A DNA stretch of 49,501 nucleotides from Succinivibrionaceae bacterium (GTDB lineage Bacteria; Pseudomonadota; Gammaproteobacteria; Enterobacterales; Succinivibrionaceae), in contig JAILEI010000204.1 in assembly GCA_024688225.1 (NCBI GenBank), positions 1 to 49,501 of the forward strand. Direction: 5' to 3'. The position numbers and the translations under genes are program-made. The notes below the pieces were generated by a model. That model was not told the DNA's origin, ran no database searches, and saw only the letters and a program-made list of their open reading frames with translations. Shown in pieces: positions 37,288 through 49,486 of the stretch; position 1 is the stretch's first letter, and each line of letters starts with the position of its first letter.

Positions 37288-38664
37288 ATGAGCATCAAAA
37301 TCATTTGGCCCGAGGGCCGGCTGGCGCAACTGACCCAGTTTGAGGCCGAGATCATCACCCGGTCTTCCCAGGACAAGGAAATCTACTCGCTCTACCGCAG
37401 TTGCTCCCTGGCGGTGCTCAACTGCGGCAGCATCACCGACAACGCGCGGCTGCTGCTCGACCGCAGCCAGGACTTTGACATCGAGGTCATCCGCAATGAG
37501 CGCGGGCTCAAGCTCGAGCTCATCAACCCGCCTGAGAGCGCCTTCATCGACGGCGAGATCCTCACCGCCATCAAGCGCCACCTGTTCGCGGTGCTGCGCG
37601 ACATCGTGCAGATCAAGCTGCACTCAGAGGAACTGGCGAGGATTTTTGACCGCAACCACATTCCCTCAGGGCAGCGCTCGGCAAACCACATTTTCTCCAT
37701 CCTGCGCAACGCCGACGCGCTGCAGTCCTCCGACATGCCCAGGATTGCGGTGTGCTGGGGCGGCCATGCCATTCCCCAGGACGAGTACGACTATGCGTAC
37801 CGGGTTGGCTATGAGCTCGGGCTGCGCAAAATCGACATCTGCACCGGCTGCGGCCCGGGGATCATGGAGGCGCCGATGAAGGGGGCGCTCATGGGGCAGT
37901 CGATGCAGGACAGCCACATGGGACGCCGCATCGGGCTCACCGAGCCGTCCATCATCATGTGTGAGCCGCCCAACGCCATGATCTCAGAGCTGGTGATCCT
38001 GCCGGACATCGAGAAGCGCCTCGAGGCCTTTGTGCGCCTGGGGCATGCGCTCATCGCCTTCCCCGGCGGCCCGGGCACCATCGAGGAGCTGCTGTTCATC
38101 CTCGCCATCCGCCTCAACGATGAGAACCGCGGCGACCCGCTGCCGCTCATCCTCACCGGGGGGGAGCAAAACCGCGACTACCTGATGTCCATCGACGCCT
38201 TCTTCCGCCAGTGCTTCGGCGATGAGATCGCCCGCTGCTACAGCATCATCATCGATGATCCCAAGGCGGTCGCCACCCGGGTCAAGGAAGGGATCAAGGA
38301 CGTCTACGACCACCGCACCCTCACCCACGACAGTTACAGCTTCAACTGGAACCTCTGCATCGACGAGGAACTCTCACGCCCCTTCGAGGCCACCCACGAG
38401 AGCATGGAGGCCCTGCGCCTCTACCACAGCGAGGCACCCGCCGACCTGGCCATTGCCCTGCGCCGGGCCTTCTCGGGCATCGTGGCGGGCAACGTCAAGG
38501 AGCAGGGGGTCAGGCAGGTCAGGGAGCGCGGCCCGTTCCGGCTGCATGGCGACCGCGACATCGTGGAGGGCATTGGGAAGCTGCTGGAGGCATTTGAGCG
38601 GGCCAAGCGCTTCTCCATCGGCAACCGCCACTATGAGCCCTGCTACGTAATCTGCCCGGACTAG
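37288..38664 (+). CDS. ppnN: Nucleotide 5'-monophosphate nucleosidase
   Basis: PpnN (YgdH) cleaves purine and pyrimidine nucleoside monophosphates to the base and ribose 5-phosphate and, in E. coli, is activated by (p)ppGpp. The central LOG-like Rossmann domain has RIAVCWGGHAIPQDEYDYAYRVGYELGLR, the GPGIMEAPMKGAL motif and the catalytic-type LIAFPGGPGTIEELLFILAIRL. The N-terminal (PEGRLAQLTQFEAE) and C-terminal (SFNWNLCIDEELSRPFEATHESM) domains match the long PpnN form, and 458 residues is normal. It is last in the endA-queF-ppnN unit. Its stop is shared, through CTAG, with the convergent fliR stop. Confidence 0.93.
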   Translation: MSIKIIWPEGRLAQLTQFEAEIITRSSQDKEIYSLYRSCSLAVLNCGSITDNARLLLDRSQDFDIEVIRNERGLKLELINPPESAFIDGEILTAIKRHLFAVLRDIVQIKLHSEELARIFDRNHIPSGQRSANHIFSILRNADALQSSDMPRIAVCWGGHAIPQDEYDYAYRVGYELGLRKIDICTGCGPGIMEAPMKGALMGQSMQDSHMGRRIGLTEPSIIMCEPPNAMISELVILPDIEKRLEAFVRLGHALIAFPGGPGTIEELLFILAIRLNDENRGDPLPLILTGGEQNRDYLMSIDAFFRQCFGDEIARCYSIIIDDPKAVATRVKEGIKDVYDHRTLTHDSYSFNWNLCIDEELSRPFEATHESMEALRLYHSEAPADLAIALRRAFSGIVAGNVKEQGVRQVRERGPFRLHGDRDIVEGIGKLLEAFERAKRFSIGNRHYEPCYVICPD

Positions 38665-39467
38665 AGCGGTCCCTCGCAGGAGAGGCCCACCAGGCGGCAG
38701 GTGCTCTCAAAGATGGCGTTGAAGTCGTGGGTGAAGTTGCCCATGTAGGCAGGCAGGATCGCGGACAGCACCGCGATGCCCGCAATCAGGGTGATGGCAA
38801 AGCCCAGGGAGAAGACGTTCAGCTGCGGGGCGGCCTTGGTCATCACGCCCAGGGTGAAGTTGATGACCAGCATCGAGCAGATGGCGCTCATGGACAGCGA
38901 CAGCGCCCCCTCAAAGATCAGCCCCCCCAGGTCAATGAAGACCATGAGGTTGTCAGGGCCAAAGGACGAGACCCCCACGGGGATGGAGGTGAAGCTCTCC
39001 AGCAGGAGGCGCACAAAGATGAGGTGGCCGTCCAGCGCAAAGAACACCAGCGTGGTGAGGATGGTGAAGAACTGGCCGACCACCGGGGTGTTGGTCCCGG
39101 ACACGGGATCGACCAGCGAGGCAAAGCCAAGGCCGGTCTGCATCGCCACTAGCTGCCCGGCCATGACGAAGACCTGCGAGAGGAAGACCGTCATCAGCCC
39201 CACCGCCGATCCCACCAGGATTTGGGAAATGGTGGTGAGCGCCCCCTCGAGGGACAGCATCGGGTAGGGCAGCGACACGCTGCCAATCATGGGCAGGATG
39301 GCCAGGGTCACCGCCAGGGACAGCCCGGCGCGCACCCGCATCGGCACGCCACGGCCACTGATCGCGAACATGCTGAGGAAAAAGGCGCTGATCCTCACCA
39401 GCGGCCAGAGGAAGCTTGACAGCCCATCAAGGACCAGGGTGTCAAGCAGCGCCCCGCCCTCGCCCAT
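38661..39467 (-). CDS. fliR: Flagellar export apparatus protein FliR
   Basis: Membrane component of the flagellar type III export gate, forming the FliPQR pore in the inner membrane. About six hydrophobic segments begin with LSSFLWPLVRISAFFLSMFAISGRGVPMRVRAGLSLAV, and the family stretch LLLESFTSIPVGVSSFG is present. 268 residues is typical. The ATG overlaps the fliQ stop (TGATG). It ends the fli operon here. flhB, often next, is not present, since a convergent gene follows with no terminator between. Confidence 0.94.
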   Translation of the reverse strand: MGEGGALLDTLVLDGLSSFLWPLVRISAFFLSMFAISGRGVPMRVRAGLSLAVTLAILPMIGSVSLPYPMLSLEGALTTISQILVGSAVGLMTVFLSQVFVMAGQLVAMQTGLGFASLVDPVSGTNTPVVGQFFTILTTLVFFALDGHLIFVRLLLESFTSIPVGVSSFGPDNLMVFIDLGGLIFEGALSLSMSAICSMLVINFTLGVMTKAAPQLNVFSLGFAITLIAGIAVLSAILPAYMGNFTHDFNAIFESTCRLVGLSCEGPL

Positions 39468-39736
39468 CAGCCCACCGACTGCGGGATGAGCTCAACCATG
39501 AGCCGGAAAAAGGACATCAGTTTCTCAAGGCCCCAGTGCGCCCCCAGCGTCAGCGCCGCCAGGGTCACCAGCAGCCTCGGCAGGAAGGAGAGGGTCTGCT
39601 CATTGATGGAGGTGGCGGCCTGGAACACCGCCACGCACAGTCCCACGGTCAGCGAGGGCACGATAGTGGCTGCCACGAGGATCGCCACCAGCTGCAGCGC
39701 CTCGCGCACAATGTCGATGAATACCTCAGGTTCCAT
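39467..39736 (-). CDS. fliQ: Flagellar export apparatus protein FliQ
   Basis: Small component of the FliPQR export pore. 89 residues with two membrane segments, matching the family pattern (REALQLVAILVAATIVPSLTVGLCVAVFQAATSINEQTLSFLPRL). AGGGGG precedes the ATG. It lies 9 bases after fliP and overlaps fliR. Confidence 0.95.
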   Translation of the reverse strand: MEPEVFIDIVREALQLVAILVAATIVPSLTVGLCVAVFQAATSINEQTLSFLPRLLVTLAALTLGAHWGLEKLMSFFRLMVELIPQSVG

Positions 39737-39745
39737 GCGCGCCCC

Positions 39746-40564
39746 CTAGGTGGCAACCCCAATGCCATAGCTTGAGACCAGCGTCCCCATCACCAGCGCC
39801 CAGCCGTCAACCATCACAAACAGCATCAGCTTGAACGGCAACGAGACAATCATTGGGGAGAGCATCATCATGCCCATCGCCATCAGGATGGAGGCCACCA
39901 CCAGGTCAATGATGAGGAAGGGCAGGAAGAGCATGAACCCCATCTGGAAGGCCGTCTTGAGCTCACTCATCATGTAGGCGGGGATCAGCACCCGCATTGG
40001 GGCGTCCTCCGGCTTGTCCACACTGAGGTTGGCAAAGTCCAGGAACAGTCCCAGGTCGGTTGCCCGGGTCTGGGAGAGCATGAAGCGGTGCAGGGGGCGC
40101 TGGCCGCGATCCAGGGCCTCGCGCGCCTCAATCTGGTCATTGGTGTAGGGCTCGATGGCCTCGGTGTAGATCTCATCGAAGACCGGGGACATGATGAACA
40201 TGGTGAGGAACAGCGCCATGCCAATGATAATCTGGTTGGAGGGCGAGGTCTGCAGACCCATGGCCTGCCTGAGGATGGCCAGGACGATGGTGATGCGGGC
40301 AAAGGAGGTCATCATCACCACCACGCTGGGCAGGAATGACAGGAAGGTCATCAGCAGCAGCGCCTGGACCTTGATGCCGTAGTCCTGGGTCCCGTCGGGG
40401 TTGGTCTTCACCGTGAAGGCCTCAAGGTCGAGATCCGCACCCAGCGCCAGCGGGGTCAGGCAGAGCAGCGCCCCCAGCAGGGCCGCCAGCGCCGCGCTCA
40501 GCTTGAAGGTGCGCAGCAGGCGGGGCAAAAGGGCCCGCAGCGCGGCCGGATCACGCCTTCCCAT
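39746..40564 (-). CDS. fliP: Flagellar export apparatus protein FliP
   Basis: Core of the flagellar export pore. From ATG 40564 (272 residues, GGGGGAGG upstream) it has a cleavable signal-like N-terminus ([24 protein letters not shown]), then four membrane segments with the family signatures [42 protein letters not shown] and [46 protein letters not shown]. The track start at 40678 would add 38 arginine-rich residues overlapping fliO. The chosen start overlaps the fliO stop by 14 bases. Confidence 0.93.
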
Positions 40565-41006
40565 GCGCTTCCTCCCCCGGCTTGTCATCCTCGGCCCCCT
40601 CGCCATCACCAGTCCCTGGTTCCCTGGGGGCCACGGCCGCCTCGCCCCTGAGCAGGCGACCAAACTCCGCGGCGTCACCCGGGCGCGGTGACAGGTCGCA
40701 GACCAGCGAGATGCCGCCCGCGGTCACCCCGACCAACAGGTCCCGGTCCCGGATCCGCACCTCCACCAGGCGCTCCTTGGGCCCCAGCTGCAACTGCGAC
40801 AGGATGGACATGCTGCCGGAGCGGCGCTGCACGAAACGGGACTTGCGCAACAGGTACGCCGCCGCAAAGAGCAGCAGCACAATGCCCAGGGTGGAGAGGA
40901 TCCACTGCAGGAACCCCGGGGCGTCAGGGCGGGCAGGCGCCCCCTCGGCGAGGGCGGCAAGGCATGATCCCGGCGCCATGAGGAGCGCCAGCGGCCAGCG
41001 CCACAT
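40551..41006 (-). CDS. fliO: Flagellar biosynthesis protein FliO
   Basis: A small membrane protein that helps assemble the FliP ring. From ATG 41006 (151 residues) there is a signal-like N-terminus, then a membrane segment ([27 protein letters not shown]) and a cytoplasmic domain with [36 protein letters not shown], the family hallmark. The tail is acidic and low-complexity. The ORF track start at 41096 lies inside fliN and would add unrelated residues. The start is two bases beyond the fliN stop, and no strong Shine-Dalgarno site is seen. Confidence 0.88.
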
Positions 41007-41007
41007 G

Positions 41008-41415
41008 CTAGCGCAGCTTCTTGATGCGCTCAATCTGACTGATGACGTCAGTGAGGCGAATGCCAAACTTGTCATTGACCACCACCACCTCGCCATGGGC
41101 GATCAGGGTGCCGTTGACCAGCACGTCCAGCGGCTCGCCGGCCAGGCGGTCCAGCTCCACCACCGAGCCCTGGTTGAGCTGCAGGAGGTTGCGGATGGCA
41201 ATCTTGGAGTGGCCCACTTCCATGGTGATGGTCACCGGGAGGTCCATGATGGCGTCGAGCTTCTTGCGCTCCTCCTTGGTGATCGGCATGCCCGCGACAC
41301 TGGTCTCGCCAGTGAAGTCCTGGATCTCCGCAACCTCGGTGCCAGTGGATCCGCCGCCGCCCTGCTCACCCAGCGCCGCGGCCCACTCATCGGCCAGTTT
41401 TTGATCATCAGACAT
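41008..41415 (-). CDS. fliN: Flagellar motor switch protein FliN
   Basis: Part of the C-ring that controls rotation direction and docks export cargo. After an acidic low-complexity N-terminus, the FliN/SpoA domain is clear: IMDLPVTITMEVGHSKIAIRNLLQLNQGSVVELDRLAGEPLDVLVNGTLIAHGEVVVVNDKFGIRLTDVIS. 135 residues is normal. TAGGAGGCA precedes the ATG. It follows fliM by 11 bases. Confidence 0.97.
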   Translation of the reverse strand: MSDDQKLADEWAAALGEQGGGGSTGTEVAEIQDFTGETSVAGMPITKEERKKLDAIMDLPVTITMEVGHSKIAIRNLLQLNQGSVVELDRLAGEPLDVLVNGTLIAHGEVVVVNDKFGIRLTDVISQIERIKKLR

Positions 41416-41426
41416 GAGAGTGCCTC

Positions 41427-42470
41427 CTAGTCATCGTCAAAGATCTCCATCTCTTCCTCCTCCTCGACGCGCTGGCCGCCAATGATCGCCGAGAGATCCG
41501 TCTTCATCGACTTCGGGCGCTCGAGCACCTTGCTCACCTTGATCGCCATCTTCTTCTCAGTATGGCCGAGCTTGGCGTGGAAGGAGGGAAGATCCTCAAC
41601 ATAAACCAGCAAGTCATCCGGCATTTCAATGGGGATCACGTCGCCGGGCTTGAAGTTCAGCACCTGCTCGAGGGTCACGTCAGTGTCCAGGAGCTTGGCG
41701 CGGAGATCCACCTTGACGTCCATGACCTCCTCGCGCAGGGCCCGGTTCCACCGCACGTCGGTGTCACCCTTGTCATTCTGCACGCCCGAGTCCAGCAACT
41801 CGCGGATAGGCTCGATCATCGAGTAGGGGAAACAGATGTGCATGTCACCGCCGCCCCCATCGAGATCGATGTGGAACTGGTTGATCACCAGCACCTCAGT
41901 GGGGTTGACGATGTTGGCCATGGCCGGGTTGACCTCGGAGTCGAGGTACTCGAACTCCACGTCCATCACCGGGGCCCAGGCCTCCTTGTAGTCACTGAAC
42001 ACCATCTTCAGGAGCTTCTGGATGATGCGCCGCTCAGTGGGGGTAAACTCGCGGCCCTCAATCTTGGTGCGGAAGCGCCCCTCGCCCCCGAAGAAGTTCT
42101 CCACGAGGATGAAGACCAGCCGCGCCTCAAGGGTGATGAGGGCCGTGCCCTTGAGCGGCCGGAAGCGCACCATGTTGAGCGAGGTGGGGACAAACAGGGT
42201 CTGGGTGTACTCCCCAAACTTGCACATCTTGACCCCGGTCCAGGTCACCTCCGCCGAGTGGCGGAGCATGTTGAAGAGGCTGACGCGCATGTGGCGGGCA
42301 AAGCGCTCGTCCACCAGCTCCAGGGTGGGCATGCGCCCGCGGACAATGCGCTCCTGCGATCCAAAGTCAAAGGACTTGACCGCGCTGCGCTCCTCGGTTG
42401 GCTGCTCTGGCTCCGGCTCATCGGCATGGAGCAGCGCGTCAATCTCTTCCTGGGACAGGAACTCGGTCAT
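41427..42470 (-). CDS. fliM: Flagellar motor switch protein FliM
   Basis: C-ring protein that binds phosphorylated CheY and switches rotation. The N-terminal CheY-binding peptide is MTEFLSQEEIDALLH, and the middle domain contains LELVDERFARHMRVSLFNMLRHSAEV and NFFGGEGRF. A SpoA domain follows (DVKVDLRAKLLDTDVTLEQVLNFKPGDVIPIEMPDDLLVYVEDL). 347 residues, normal, with an acidic tail. It lies between fliL and fliN. Confidence 0.97.
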   Translation of the reverse strand: MTEFLSQEEIDALLHADEPEPEQPTEERSAVKSFDFGSQERIVRGRMPTLELVDERFARHMRVSLFNMLRHSAEVTWTGVKMCKFGEYTQTLFVPTSLNMVRFRPLKGTALITLEARLVFILVENFFGGEGRFRTKIEGREFTPTERRIIQKLLKMVFSDYKEAWAPVMDVEFEYLDSEVNPAMANIVNPTEVLVINQFHIDLDGGGGDMHICFPYSMIEPIRELLDSGVQNDKGDTDVRWNRALREEVMDVKVDLRAKLLDTDVTLEQVLNFKPGDVIPIEMPDDLLVYVEDLPSFHAKLGHTEKKMAIKVSKVLERPKSMKTDLSAIIGGQRVEEEEEMEIFDDD

Positions 42471-42504
42471 GGCCTCACATCCCCCTCACGTCGCGTGCCA
42501 TGCG

Positions 42505-43044
42505 CTACTGGATGATGAACGAGGTGAAGAGCACGCGGTCAACCAGCGGCTGGTTGAGCACGTCCGCCATCTTGTAGCGCACCGCGGAGAGGATCTTGGA
42601 CTTGAGCCCCTGGCGCCCGAAGGGGCGGGTGAGGATGGCGAAGCTCTCGCTGCTCATGGCCTCAAAGACCGTGCTCTCAAGCAGGGACTTGTGCTTCTCG
42701 GCAAGGTCGCTGTTCTCCTTGCCGCGCACCACCAGCACCACCTCGATCTGCGCAAAGTGGCGGTGGCTCTGGTTGTCCTTGAGGTTAAAGTTGAACGGGT
42801 TGCTGAACTTGACGAAAAAGTCCTCGTCGACCACCGTCGCGATCTCCTTCTCCTCCGCCTGCATGGCCGCCATCTCCTCGAGGGTCGGCCCCTCCTTGGC
42901 AAAGGGGGGCAGGTTCAGGAAGAAGGCCGCGCCGAGATAGCCGCCGGCGAGCAGGATCAGCAGGATGAGGCCGATCACGATGTAGAAGAGCAGGCCCCGC
43001 TTCTTTTTGGGTACCGCTGTGGGATCATCGATTTCGGCGGGCAT
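42505..43044 (-). CDS. fliL: Flagellar basal-body protein FliL
   Basis: Inner-membrane protein of the basal body that helps the stator work. One membrane segment near residues 15-40 (GLLFYIVIGLILLILLAGGYLGAAFFL) is followed by a periplasmic domain with FFVKFSNPFNFNLKDNQSHRHFAQIEVVLVVRG and a conserved end LNQPLVDRVLFTSFIIQ. 179 residues. GGGGGAA precedes the ATG. It is 73 bases downstream of fliK. Confidence 0.93.
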   Translation of the reverse strand: MPAEIDDPTAVPKKKRGLLFYIVIGLILLILLAGGYLGAAFFLNLPPFAKEGPTLEEMAAMQAEEKEIATVVDEDFFVKFSNPFNFNLKDNQSHRHFAQIEVVLVVRGKENSDLAEKHKSLLESTVFEAMSSESFAILTRPFGRQGLKSKILSAVRYKMADVLNQPLVDRVLFTSFIIQ

Positions 43045-43117: not shown

Positions 43118-45172
43118 CTAGGCGTACATGCTCAGCCCACCCTCATCAAGGGCCTCGCTGGCCACCTCCCCGGGACTGGTTCCGTCACCCTCGCCGGCCC
43201 CATCGTCCCCAGAGGCGAACAGCGTGCCCTCGCCGTTGCCCGCAGGGGCGTCGCCGTAGTCACCGCCATCTCCGCCCTCCTGGGCCAGGGCGCCCTCGCC
43301 CTCGGCATCCTGGTAGTCAACCACCACCGGGTCGAGCTCGAGTCCCAGCCGCGCCAGGCTGACCTTGAGGTCGGACAGGGCCCCCTCCAGCAGCTCAGCG
43401 GTGGCGGGGTTCATGGCGGCGATGGTCAGCCGCGTGGCCTCATTGCTGGCGTCAAGCCCAAAGGAGAGCTTGATCTTGCCGAGGTTGGCCGGGTTGAGCT
43501 CCAGCTCCATCTGCTTCATGTTCCTGGCAGCCATCGACAGCACCTTCTCAGCGAGCGCGCGGGCATTCTCGCTGTCTGACGCCGAGAGTGAGAGCTGGCC
43601 CTGCGCGCCCGCCAGGGTGGCGGTGCCACTGCCGCTGGTGGTGCCCAGGCCCTGCTGCAGCCCCTGCATCAGGAAGCCCTGGGAGAACTGCTGGGAGGCA
43701 AGGCCCGAGCCCTGCTGCCCCAGCTGCCCATCAGCAGACGTTGCCAGGGCCGGAAGCGCCGCCCCCTGGCGCTGGGCGGTAGCCTCAGCCACCGTCATCA
43801 CCTTGCCGCCGGAAAGGGTTTCCCTCAGGGTGGCAAGCGCATCGCTTAACTGTGACCTCACCGGCGCGGCAGCCGAGGCCACCGTGGCGGCGGCGCCGGC
43901 ACTCCGGGCCGCAAGCTCTGAAATCTTCCAGGACTGGGACTGGGCCAGGTCAAGGCCCTTCTCAACCTGCCCTTGCTGCCTGGCCATGGCCAGGGCATCC
44001 TTGACCGTAATCTTGCTGGCGCCCAGCTGGTCCGCCAGCTGGTCCACCCGCCTTTGCAGGGCATCCCCAGTGGGTTCCTGGGCAACCGCCTGGCGCAGCG
44101 GGGACTGGGCATTGAGATCCCTAAGGCGCGAGACAATCTGCTCATCGGCAGGCAGGTCGCGCTGTGCCTGCTGGGCAAGGTCCAGGGCCTTGCCTGAGCC
44201 CTGGGCCTGCCGTCCCTGCTCACGGGAGAGGTAGCGAGAGAGGGGATCCTGCCCAGCGTCCTCACCGCCATCCTGGGGGGCCAGGGCAACCGCCCGGGGA
44301 GCCAGGACCGCTTCCTCCCCAGTGGACTGGGCAGAATCAGTGGGGAGATCCCCAAGGACCGGGGCCTCCGCCACCACCTGGGTCTCCGCCACGGCCGGGG
44401 CGGGCACCGCCTCAGCGGCAGCCATCACCAGGGCCTTGGGATCCACCACCTTCTCGAGCGACTCCCCAGCGCCATCCAGGCCTGGGTAAACAGTGGGCTT
44501 GTCCCCAGGCCAGATCAACTCCCCGTTATCGAGGATAGCCATGGGATCCGCCTCTGCCCTTGCCTCCTCAGGCAGCAGGCGGGCGATGGCCTCCCCGGAC
44601 TCAGCCGGGGCCAGGTCCATCACCGGATCCGCCTGATCCACCGCCTCAGGCACCAGTTCCACCGGACGGGCGCCACCCTGGGAGGCAAAATCCTCCAGGG
44701 ACTGGGACAGATCCACGTCCGCCATGGTGGCCTGCCCCACCGCAACGGTTCTGTCCAGTTCCTGCCCGACCTCCGGGGCGGAAACCCGGGCGTCCCCCCG
44801 GCCAGCGTCCTCGCGGCTGACCTCAGCCGCACCGCGCCCCTGCCCCTGGCGCGGGGCCTCGCTGGCACTGGGCCTGGCCTCAGGGCGCCCCTTGCCGGCA
44901 CGCTCGGGCGCCGCCTGGTCCTTGCCGCCGCCGGCACGCTCCCAGGCAATGGGCCTTGACTCCGGCCTTGCCTGGCGGGCGCGCTCCATGCGTGACGATG
45001 ATGCCTCCCTTGAGGTGCTGATGATACTGGACATGAAGTCGCCCTGGAAAGAGTTCCCCTTGAGGCCGCTTAGCAGCGAAGAGAACTCCATCCCGCCCTT
45101 GCCGGCTGAATCGTTGCCGCTGGCGGCAGCCTTAGCCGTGCTTGCCGCCTGAACATTCATGCAAACTTGCAT
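43118..45172 (-). CDS. fliK: Flagellar hook-length control protein FliK
   Basis: Secreted ruler that stops hook growth and switches export to filament proteins. The first ~550 residues are low-complexity, rich in Ala, Gln, Glu and Pro, as usual for FliK. The C-terminal hook-length domain is clear in LELNPANLGKIKLSFGLDASNEATRLTIAAMNPATAELLEGALSDLKVSLARLGLEL. From ATG 45172 (684 residues) GGAG lies nine bases upstream, whereas the track start at 45187 is a TTG. It is larger than E. coli FliK (375), so a longer hook is conceivable. It has its own sigma-54-like promoter. Confidence 0.92.
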   Translation of the reverse strand: MQVCMNVQAASTAKAAASGNDSAGKGGMEFSSLLSGLKGNSFQGDFMSSIISTSREASSSRMERARQARPESRPIAWERAGGGKDQAAPERAGKGRPEARPSASEAPRQGQGRGAAEVSREDAGRGDARVSAPEVGQELDRTVAVGQATMADVDLSQSLEDFASQGGARPVELVPEAVDQADPVMDLAPAESGEAIARLLPEEARAEADPMAILDNGELIWPGDKPTVYPGLDGAGESLEKVVDPKALVMAAAEAVPAPAVAETQVVAEAPVLGDLPTDSAQSTGEEAVLAPRAVALAPQDGGEDAGQDPLSRYLSREQGRQAQGSGKALDLAQQAQRDLPADEQIVSRLRDLNAQSPLRQAVAQEPTGDALQRRVDQLADQLGASKITVKDALAMARQQGQVEKGLDLAQSQSWKISELAARSAGAAATVASAAAPVRSQLSDALATLRETLSGGKVMTVAEATAQRQGAALPALATSADGQLGQQGSGLASQQFSQGFLMQGLQQGLGTTSGSGTATLAGAQGQLSLSASDSENARALAEKVLSMAARNMKQMELELNPANLGKIKLSFGLDASNEATRLTIAAMNPATAELLEGALSDLKVSLARLGLELDPVVVDYQDAEGEGALAQEGGDGGDYGDAPAGNGEGTLFASGDDGAGEGDGTSPGEVASEALDEGGLSMYA

Positions 45173-45264
45173 TGGCAAAATCTCCAACTCAAACTTTAAT
45201 TTATTGTTTTAATAATGTTTTTTAGGTGGTCCGGGCATTTTGCCCGCTTTCCACCCCTTGGAGT

Positions 45265-45280
45265 TGCAATTTGCTTGCCA
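45265..45280 (-). promoter_or_regulatory. Sigma-54 promoter before fliK
   Basis: On the minus strand TGGCAAGCAAATTGCA matches the -24/-12 consensus TGGCACG-N4-TTGCA, with GG and GC ten bases apart. It lies between the fliJ stop and fliK, about 90 bases upstream of the ATG, in a non-coding gap that also contains an AT-rich stretch. Confidence 0.8.
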
Positions 45281-45308
45281 TGAATTCGCGTGCAGGGGGT
45301 GATGCCGC

Positions 45309-45758
45309 TCAGCGCGCCTTGCGCCGGCCCATCCGCGCGGTCACCACCTCATCGAGGAGCTTGGCGTCGCGCTTGTCCTCAAGCTTGCGCTGCTCCTCGC
45401 GGTGGTGCTGGATGAGGGTCTCGATGATGTTGCGCTCCTGGCGGCGCTTGATGAATTCCTGCCTGCAGGCCTCGGCACGGTCCTTGAGCATCAGGAGCTC
45501 ACGCTCCTGGCGCTGCTCAATGCCCTCGAGCTTGGCGATGAAGTCCTGGTAGGAGAGGTAGGCGCCCATGCTCATGCCGCCCGCCTCGGACTTGGCCTGC
45601 ATCTCGGCAAGGTAGGACTTGCGGAATTCCCGGACCTGCTCAATCTGCTGCATGAAGGCCTGCACCCGCTGGGTGGCCCCGCTCCAAACCTCGAGGGCGT
45701 TCTGCTCGGCCTTCTCACGCTGCTCAAGCACCAGGCGCAGGGTACGCTCATTGGCCAT
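45309..45758 (-). CDS. fliJ: Flagellar export chaperone FliJ
   Basis: Coiled-coil protein that links the FliI ATPase ring to the export gate. 149 residues, almost wholly charged helix, with the family pattern RTLRLVLEQREKAEQNALEVW and RRQERNIIETLIQHHREEQRKLEDKRDAKLLDE. AGGAC precedes the ATG and the start lies 9 bases after the fliI stop. Confidence 0.92.
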   Translation of the reverse strand: MANERTLRLVLEQREKAEQNALEVWSGATQRVQAFMQQIEQVREFRKSYLAEMQAKSEAGGMSMGAYLSYQDFIAKLEGIEQRQERELLMLKDRAEACRQEFIKRRQERNIIETLIQHHREEQRKLEDKRDAKLLDEVVTARMGRRKAR

Positions 45759-45767
45759 GGGCTAGTC

Positions 45768-47207
45768 CTATGACTTGCGGTTGAAGGTGACCTTGGCCGC
45801 GGGCTGGCGGCTGGGTGGCGGGCCCGTGCGCGGCTGGGACTGCTGCTGCATGCTGTCCACCTTCTGTTGCGCGTCGTTGATGAGCAGCATGGCCAGGTTC
45901 TTGAGCCCGTCCAGGCTCTGCTTGAAGGGAATCACCGCCTTCATCTCCTGGGTGGTGAAGGCGTCGAGGTGCGGCTTGATCATGATGGCCTGGTCAATGG
46001 CGGGATCGGATCCTTTCTGGTAGGCGCCGATTTGGATTAGCTCACGGCTCTGGTTGTACTGGGCCAGGCACTGGCGCATGGTGCGCGCCATCATCATGTG
46101 CTCCTGGGTCACCACCGCCGGCATCACGCGGCTGACCGACTTCTCGACATCGATGGCGGGGAAGTGGCCCGCGTCCGCGAGCTGGCGGGAGAGCACGATG
46201 TGCCCGTCAAGGATGGCGCGGGCCGAGTCGGCAATGGGATCCTGGAGATCGTCGCCCTCGACCAGCACCGTGAAGAAGGCGGTGATCGATCCCTCGCCCT
46301 GCGCCCCATTGCCCGCCCGCTCCACCAGGGCCGGCAGCTTGGCGAACACCGAGGGGGGATAGCCCTTCTGGGCCGGTGGCTCGCCCACCGCCAGCGCGAT
46401 CTCGCGCTGCGCCATTGCGTAGCGGGTCAGGGAGTCGATGAGCAGCAGCACGTTGCGCCCCTGGTCACGGAAGTACTCGGCAATGGCCAGGGTGGTCTCA
46501 CAGCCCTTGAGGCGCATCAGCGCCGAGGTGTCCGCCGGGGAGGCGATCACCACCGAGCGGGCCCGCCCCTCCGGCCCCAGGATGTCCTCAATGAACTCCT
46601 TGACCTCGCGCCCGCGCTCGCCGATGAGTCCCACCACCACCACGTCGGCGCTGGTGCCGCGGGTCATCATGCCCAGCAGCACGGACTTGCCCACGCCCGA
46701 TCCGGCAAAGAGGCCCATGCGCTGGCCCTGGCCGATGGTGAGCATGGAGTTGATGGCGGCAATGCCCACATCCAGGGGCTTGCGGATGGGGGTGCGGGAC
46801 ATGGGGTTGACGTGGTGGGGGCGCCAGCGGCAGGCGCTGTCCTTGACCACCGGGCCCATGCCGTCGAGGGGGCGGCCCAGGCTGTCAATCACCCGCCCCA
46901 GCAGGTGATCGCCAAAGGGCAGGTCCAGGCCCACCCCCACCGGGGTCACCAGGTCGCCGCTCTTGACCCCGGAGACCTCATCGGTGGGCATCAGGTACAC
47001 CAGCGACCCCTCAAAGCCCACTACCTCAGCGGAAAGCGGCCCTGAGTCGGTGTCAATGCGGCAGCGCTGCCCCACCGAGGTCTTGAGGCCCTCGGCCTCC
47101 AGGGTCAGGCCCACCACCCGGGTCAGGTGCCCGGAAAGCAATGGCGGCTCCTCGCGCTCCGGCAGGGGCAGCGAGCGCAGCCGGGCTGCCAGCCGCCCCG
47201 GGTTCAC
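45768..47207 (-). CDS. fliI: Flagellum-specific ATPase FliI
   Basis: Peripheral ATPase of the flagellar type III export system, related to the F1 beta subunit. Walker A is [15 protein letters not shown], with the export-ATPase features [18 protein letters not shown] and [35 protein letters not shown]. 479 residues is slightly longer than E. coli FliI (457) owing to a polar Gln/Pro-rich C-terminal tail ([22 protein letters not shown]). The start is a GTG overlapping the fliH stop (GTGA). Confidence 0.97.
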
Positions 47208-48406
47208 TGGGCCTCCTGGGGGGCGGGATCCGGGTTTTCCGGGGCGCCATCGCCTGCCGGGGGAACTGGATCCCCCTCCCCGGGCGCGGGCGGTTGCGCC
47301 TCAGCCATCGCAGGCCCCACGCTGGGACTGGGGGGCGGGGACGGGGGCTCATCACCAACCTCATCGCGCAGCGCCCGGTCCACAATCCCCGCCGCCCCCT
47401 CCAGGAAGGAATTGAGCAGGCTGTCAATGCGGTCATCAAGGCGCCAGTTGACGGTGGAGGTCAGGTCAGTGACCATCACCGAGCCGGGCGCCAGCTGCTC
47501 GTCCGGCACCAGCTGCCAGCGCTGCTCCTTGATGTACTCAGCGCCGATCGCCGCCTCCAGCAGGGCAATGTCGTCCGGGTGCAGCGACACGGTGGCGCCC
47601 TTTTGCCCCTTGGGCAGCACCGCCACCGCCTCGCGGATGGTCTTGGCGAGAAACTCGTGATCCCCCTTGATCTCGCGCCGGATGATTACGCTCGCGAGCC
47701 TGCTCACCAGGTACACCAGCTCATCGGTGACCTCCCGGTTGAGCTCGCGCAGGGGGGTGGACAGCTCATCGGCCAGGTGGCGGAAGCGCTCGGCCTGCTC
47801 GAGGACAATCCGCTCCCCGTTGGCAAGGCCTTCCTCCTGCCCCTGGCTGAAGCCCTCCTCCCGGCCCTGCGCCAGGCCCTCCTCATAGCCCTGCTTCGCC
47901 CCGGCGCCCTGCCCCTGGGCCACCCCTTCCTCGTAGCCCTTGGCAAAGCCCTCCTCATGGCCCTTGGCAAGGCCTGCCTCATAGCCCTCGCGCTCGGCGG
48001 CGGCGGCAATCTCCTCAAGGTTCTGCACGGTGGGCGCGCCCGCGGCCTGCCCAGAATCGCCTGCCTCGGCCCCCTCCGCGCCCGGGGCGGGATCCGCCGG
48101 GGCCTCAGCCTCGGCCATCTCCCGCTCCATCTCCTGCCGCTCCTCCTCGGCCTTGCGCTCCAGCGAAAGGCGCAGCTGCCGCTGGTACCAGCCGCCAGTG
48201 GGGGAGCCAATTGCCGTGGTATGCGCCTTGACCCCGTCATCCATCATCGGCCATTGCAGGGGGGCAAACTCCTTTGCCGCCTCATCCTCGGCCTTGATGG
48301 TGTTGACAATGGGGCGCAGGTAGCGCTCATCGGTGCGCTGGGCCTTTTCCTGGGACTTGGTGGAGTCCTCAAGGTCCAGCACCACGTCAGGGACCAGATC
48401 GCTCAT
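47204..48406 (-). CDS. fliH: Flagellar export regulator FliH
   Basis: Inhibitory partner of the FliI ATPase in the export complex. Its middle carries a long Gly-zipper region with repeats [37 protein letters not shown] that fits the GxxxG repeats of FliH, followed by the conserved C-terminal part ([37 protein letters not shown]). At 400 residues it is much longer than E. coli FliH (235), mostly through acidic/proline-rich ends. AGAGG precedes the ATG. It lies 30 bases after fliG. Confidence 0.9.
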
Positions 48407-48436: not shown

Positions 48437-49486
48437 CTACACGAAGTCATCGCCGCCGCCGTGGCCGAGCATGATCTCGCCCTTGTCAGCAAGCTTGTGG
48501 GCAATGGTGAGGATTTCCTTCTGCGCGCTCTCAACATCGGAGAGCTTGGTGGGACCCATGGCCGCCAGATCCTCCTTCATCGAGGCCGCGGCACGCGAGG
48601 ACATGTTCTTGAACATCTTCTCGCGGAGCTTGTCGTCCGCGCCCTTGAGCGCCTTCTCGAGCACGTCGTTGGGCGCCTCGCGCAGGATGCTCTGGATGGA
48701 GCGGTCGTCCACGTCGATGAGGTTGTCGAACACGAACATGAGATCCTTGATCGCGTTGCCCATCTCCTTGTCCTGGGCGCTGATGGCATCCATGATCTGG
48801 CTCTCGGTGTTGGTGTCGAGGAAGTTCATGATGCCCGCGGCGCTCTTGAGGCCGCCAATCTTGGCGGTCTTGGCGCCGGCGCTTCCGGCAAACTGCTTTT
48901 CCATGATTTCGTTGAGCTCCTGCAGCGCCGCCGGCTGGACTTCCTCCAGCGTGGCGATGCGCATGATTAGGTCGATGCGGGTCTGCTCCCGGAACTGGGA
49001 GAGGATCTGGGCGCTCTGCTCGGGCTCGAGGTAGGAAAGCACAATGGTCTGGATCTGGGGGTGCTCGTTCTGGATGATGGTGGCCACCTGGCGCGCGTCC
49101 ATCCACTTGAGCGAGTCGAGGCCCCTGGAGCCTGAGGTAAGGGAAATCTGGTCGATGACGTTGGTGGCGCGATCCTGGCCCAGCGCCGCGGTGAGGGCGT
49201 TGCGCACAAAGTCCGGGGAGCCAAGGCCGATGTTGGAGTGCTTGGTGATGGAGGAGAGGAAGGTCTTGTGCACGGCATTGACCTTGGCCTGGTCCATCTG
49301 GGTAATCTCCGCCATGCGCACGCCCAGGCGCTGCACCTGCTTGGGCTGGAGGTTGCGGAAAATCTGCGCCGCGTCATCCTCGTTGAGCGACAGCATCAGG
49401 ATGGAGGCCTTGTCGATGCCGTCCATGTCGCGGATGGCGGCCTTCTCCTCATCGGTTAATTCAAGGCCGGCCGCCGCGGGGGGCAC
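48437..49486 (-). CDS. fliG: Flagellar motor switch protein FliG, possibly truncated by the window edge
   Basis: C-ring protein that touches the stator and generates torque. The family motifs include IDKASILMLSLNEDDAAQIFRNL, NEHPQIQTIVLSYLEPEQSAQIL, PAALQELNEIM, and the C-terminal torque helix MFVFDNLIDVDDRSIQSILREAP. The visible 349 residues include 18 more than E. coli FliG at the N-terminus, from the GTG at 49486. The frame stays open to the window edge (Ala/Pro-rich), so the true start may lie outside. It heads the visible operon, and the upstream genes (fliE, fliF) would be expected beyond the edge. Confidence 0.95.
   Translation of the reverse strand: MPPAAAGLELTDEEKAAIRDMDGIDKASILMLSLNEDDAAQIFRNLQPKQVQRLGVRMAEITQMDQAKVNAVHKTFLSSITKHSNIGLGSPDFVRNALTAALGQDRATNVIDQISLTSGSRGLDSLKWMDARQVATIIQNEHPQIQTIVLSYLEPEQSAQILSQFREQTRIDLIMRIATLEEVQPAALQELNEIMEKQFAGSAGAKTAKIGGLKSAAGIMNFLDTNTESQIMDAISAQDKEMGNAIKDLMFVFDNLIDVDDRSIQSILREAPNDVLEKALKGADDKLREKMFKNMSSRAAASMKEDLAAMGPTKLSDVESAQKEILTIAHKLADKGEIMLGHGGGDDFV

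Follow-up and report, generated by a model that had tools for sequence, protein, structure and literature searches.

The fliK gene of this Succinivibrionaceae genome and the co-oriented fliLMNOPQR genes are very probably driven by a sigma-54 (RpoN) promoter of their own, which would give the fli cluster a second, internal transcription unit; we put the probability of this reading at roughly 0.9. The element concerned, TGGCAAGCAAATTGCA, lies in the gap between fliJ and fliK (Table 1); its sequence and setting make it almost certain that this is the type of sigma-54 promoter that precedes fliK in Vibrio. We favor this reading because position, strand, distance to fliK, conservation, the presence of RpoN and activators, and sister sites in the same genome all agree, and together they support the internal promoter before fliK that had been proposed in the original prediction.

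TGGCAAGCAAATTGCA is a 16-mer on the minus strand, which is the coding strand of fliG-fliR; the strand was left unstated when the -24/-12 fit was first proposed. The fit itself is exact for TGGC-N7-TTGCW (0 mismatches), with one mismatch to the longer TGGCACG-N4-TTGCW. The -24 GG and the -12 GC are 10 bp apart, the spacing of sigma-54 promoters, and have near-consensus flanks, while the -12 C lies 94 bp upstream of the fliK start codon, an in-frame ATG at 45172 with a GGAG ribosome site at 45185-45182. The gap (45173-45308) measures 136 bp and is the largest in the fliG-fliR run, the next being the ∼73 bp between fliK and fliL, so its earlier description as the one clear non-coding gap was fair.

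Table 1. Coordinates of the fli genes and of the elements in the fliJ-fliK gap.
Feature	Position	Strand	Basis or remark
fliG	48437-49486	minus	Pfam
fliH	47204-48406	minus	Pfam
fliI	45768-47207	minus	Pfam
fliJ, gene upstream of the gap	45309-45758	minus	Pfam FliJ, E 9e-18
Putative sigma-54 -24/-12 promoter element TGGCAAGCAAATTGCA	45265-45280	minus	GG 45279-45278, GC 45267-45266
Predicted fliK 5' untranslated leader	45173-45254	minus	predicted start 12 nt downstream of -12
Dyad GGGCAAAATGCCC in the predicted leader	45233-45245	minus	possible activator site or hairpin
fliK (hook-length control)	43118-45172	minus	Pfam Flg_hook, E 2e-14
fliL-fliM-fliN-fliO-fliP-(fliQ)-fliR, probably served by the promoter after fliK	38661-43044	minus	fliQ assumed from position
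fliL	42505-43044	minus	Pfam
fliM	41427-42470	minus	Pfam
fliN	41008-41415	minus	Pfam
fliO	40551-41096	minus	Pfam
fliP	39746-40678	minus	Pfam
fliR	38661-39467	minus	NCBIfam

Both strands of the window (the whole 49.5-kb stretch of DNA analyzed) were scored for -24/-12 sites using consensus weights that approximate the Barrios 1999 compilation, so that absolute scores serve as relative measures only. TGGCAAGCAAATTGCA had the highest score in the window; when the gap was dinucleotide-shuffled 20,000 times, this score was reached with P = 0.00045. The second-best site (41329-41344) is located within fliN and ends in G, and was discarded as a chance match in coding sequence. TGGC-N7-TTGCW occurs once in the window, which taken alone is unremarkable, and 62 times in the genome, compared with 20 times for the reversed pattern. 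With a motif this short and degenerate, TGGCAAGCAAATTGCA might be a chance match, with fliK-R depending entirely on transcription that begins upstream of fliE/fliG and reads through; a gap in which a simple scan detected no intrinsic terminator would permit this. We regard this explanation as very unlikely, since a site at a similar distance from fliK is kept across the family and is retained where fliK does not adjoin fliJ.

Conservation among relatives is the strongest evidence for the proposed fliK promoter. Searches with FliI were used to collect fliI-fliJ-fliK regions from relatives (matches in 35 of 41 genomes, of which the best loci were retained) and from 80 named genomes, and a FliK search in 57 family genomes retrieved 40 upstream regions, 39 of them usable with the window included. 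In 34 of these 39 genomes, a score of at least 12 was reached by a site no more than 200 bp before the fliK start. The controls gave 0/39 for the antisense strand, 8/358 for windows inside fliK and ≈1% for shuffles. By this scoring the remaining five genomes have no good site before fliK, and their start codons are uncertain. Most sites in the family are 85–120 bp from the ATG, as in the window, and a second group is found at 35–63 bp.

Where fliJ adjoins fliK, 11 of 12 family genomes have the site. It is also present in 19 of the 23 in which fliJ lies at a distance of over 800 bp or did not turn up in the ∼1–2.3 kb upstream. Most relatives are fragmented draft assemblies, in which single breakpoints may be erroneous, and congeneric species do not count as independent cases. 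As the site stays with fliK when fliJ is distant, the element belongs to fliK rather than to fliJ. The same type of site was found just after fliJ in Aeromonas, which has the closest FliI among the named genomes (68%), and in Vibrio, Pseudoalteromonas, Idiomarina, Alteromonas, Marinobacter, Oceanospirillum and others; among the betaproteobacterial loci that were scored, few have such a site after fliJ.

The proteins expected for sigma-54 transcription are encoded in the genome (2.05 Mb, 208 contigs, 96% complete). RpoN was identified by PF04552 (E 3.6e-65) and carries the RpoN box ARRTVTKYR. AAA+ activators with a GAFTGA motif are represented by FlrA/FleQ-like and FlrC-like proteins. The FlrC-like protein (contig C196) has a receiver-AAA+-Fis-type layout, retains the receiver Asp along with the Walker A and GAFTGA motifs, and among PDB entries matches V. 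cholerae FlrC best, at 359 bits compared with 280 for the runner-up. A protein with a FleQ domain on contig C30 has FleQ/FlrA as best matches. By its layout, a soluble PAS-HisKA kinase on C163 (L227:918-1889) is a candidate FlrB. The FlrC-like gene (L136:4298-5779) follows a tRNA-like cluster, precedes a leucyl-tRNA synthetase gene and has no adjoining histidine kinase gene. A second FliI-like ATPase (C22:3215-4453), 49% identical to FliI, is also encoded here and in many family genomes, and may be part of a non-flagellar type III secretion system.

The suggested search for similar sites before other fli and flg genes was carried out. The genome contains 24 positions with at most one mismatch to TGGCACG-N4-TTGCW, and nine of them are upstream of flagellar genes (flgB, flgE, flgF, flgH, flgJ, flgO, flgT, fliE and fliK). 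One -24/-12 site, at C30:9943-9958, is located in the region separating flgJ from the divergent flrA/fleQ-like gene, and flgJ may thus have its own sigma-54 promoter. The dyad GGGCAAGTGCCC before flgE (C152, L135) lies 37–48 nt from the start of its -24/-12 site, and the fliK dyad GGGCAAAATGCCC is at a nearly equal offset downstream of its promoter. Dyads of the GGGCA-N-TGCCC type were considered as FlrC sites, but with ≈86 copies in this G+C-rich genome and no retention in relatives they were left as a lead.

At the proposed fliK promoter, the RpoN holoenzyme would bind the -24 GG and the -12 GC, and an AAA+ activator would hydrolyse ATP and open the complex. The activator is most likely the FlrC-like response regulator encoded here, or possibly the FlrA/FleQ-like protein; it may not be FlrC, because FlaK, the FlrA ortholog of P. 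shigelloides, binds the fliK promoter there (PMC11242183). Transcription would begin near 45254, giving a leader of ∼80 nt, and the transcript would be expected to cover fliK-fliR. Basal transcription is probably contributed by polymerase that reads through from the fliE-J unit, as the gap contains no terminator-like site; the dyad GGGCAAAATGCCC is not a terminator since it lacks a T run. The expectation that fliK and fliL-fliR are expressed separately from fliG-J is therefore upheld as regards a promoter of their own, while "separately" was too strong.

Two other uses of the gap were weighed against the sigma-54 promoter. Another working promoter could be present, for example of the sigma-28 type, as TAAAGTTT (45198-45191), located in an AT-rich stretch, forms a perfect sigma-28 -35-like octamer. 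Its -10 partner is at the wrong spacing and would overlap the fliK start codon, for which reason the sigma-28 reading of TAAAGTTT was dropped, and no such promoter is evident in the leaders of relatives. A simple scan of the gap for sigma-70-type promoters found none either, and we give an alternative promoter even less weight than a chance match. The gap might instead mainly hold an RNA element of the fliK leader, a hairpin or riboswitch. For the predicted leader, folding gave -21 kcal/mol, and Rfam returned a single match in the gap, SAM-II, which at 19.5 bits is far under the gathering score of 44 (E 0.35) and was taken as chance. Among relatives the sequence between the site and the ATG is not kept, unlike the promoter, so that an RNA element appears the least probable of these explanations.

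A promoter of this class before fliK is established in Vibrio. In V. cholerae, fliK is among the promoters bound by RpoN in ChIP-seq, as cited in PMC9817140, and fliKLMNOPQRflhB is placed in the FlrBC regulon as class III (PMC12607845); both RpoN binding and dependence on FlrBC are on record for this ortholog of the operon (PMC9817140, PMC6504787, PMC12607845). This agrees with the expectation that polar-flagellate gammaproteobacteria use sigma-54 with FlrC/FleR for such genes. Expression of V. parahaemolyticus fliK (VP2244) falls in an rpoN mutant (PMC9817140, PMC6504787, PMC12607845); in EMSA, RpoN bound only some of the predicted flagellar promoters of this species, fliK being outside the tested set (PMC9817140). 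In V. fischeri, fliK is listed as its own unit and a fliK fusion was built (PMC3948606). PMC8753867 is a further source on the known Vibrio cases.

The Vibrio promoter and the one proposed here share the genes served, the position before fliK and the -24/-12 architecture, but differ in the less conserved letters of the site (TGGCGTGATTTTTGCA in V. parahaemolyticus, TGGCAAGCAAATTGCA here). The fliK site listed for V. parahaemolyticus, TTGGCGTGATTTTTGCAAA, has a core identical to the site we found before V. harveyi fliK. Vibrio flrBC is a gene pair, whereas the flrB and flrC candidates here are on different contigs. In Plesiomonas shigelloides the region before fliK is likewise bound by a sigma-54 activator, FlaK; there the activator is an FlrA ortholog, while here FlrC-like and FlrA-like proteins are both candidates. 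Our literature search found no paper joining Succinivibrionaceae, flagellar and sigma54. Given the Vibrio precedents, the fliK promoter is a new instance, in a poorly studied family, of a known promoter class.

In several relatives (for example L199, L208, L211, L216 and L184) fliJ and fliK are ∼0.8–1.7 kb apart, with other DNA between them, and the sigma-54 site is still beside fliK. Many other family genomes have no fliJ found upstream of fliK, and there too the site remains beside fliK. A tentative explanation, which we consider possible but rather unlikely, is that the fli cluster was repeatedly opened at fliJ/fliK in Succinivibrionaceae, and that the promoter stayed with fliK and would have to work before the export gate is made, e.g., under FlrA. 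With fliK away from fliJ, read-through from fliE-J would not feed fliK-R, and the fliK promoter would then have to work before an export gate exists.

If true, this would bear on the question of how the export-gate operon can be driven by FlrBC when FlrBC itself depends on the export gate in V. cholerae. In that species FlrBC is active only if export gate, MS ring and rotor are present (PMC7064773), yet fliKLMNOPQRflhB is reported to be FlrBC-dependent (PMC12607845). Upstream read-through into fliK-R may ease this tension, and genomes with fliK apart from fliJ would offer a natural test for the source of the first export-gate proteins. For the family, the fliJ/fliK boundary is the place of a probable promoter and at the same time often a breakpoint, and the probable promoter extends the sigma-54 hierarchy of polar flagellates, in which the fliK operon forms a unit by itself, to the poorly studied Succinivibrionaceae.
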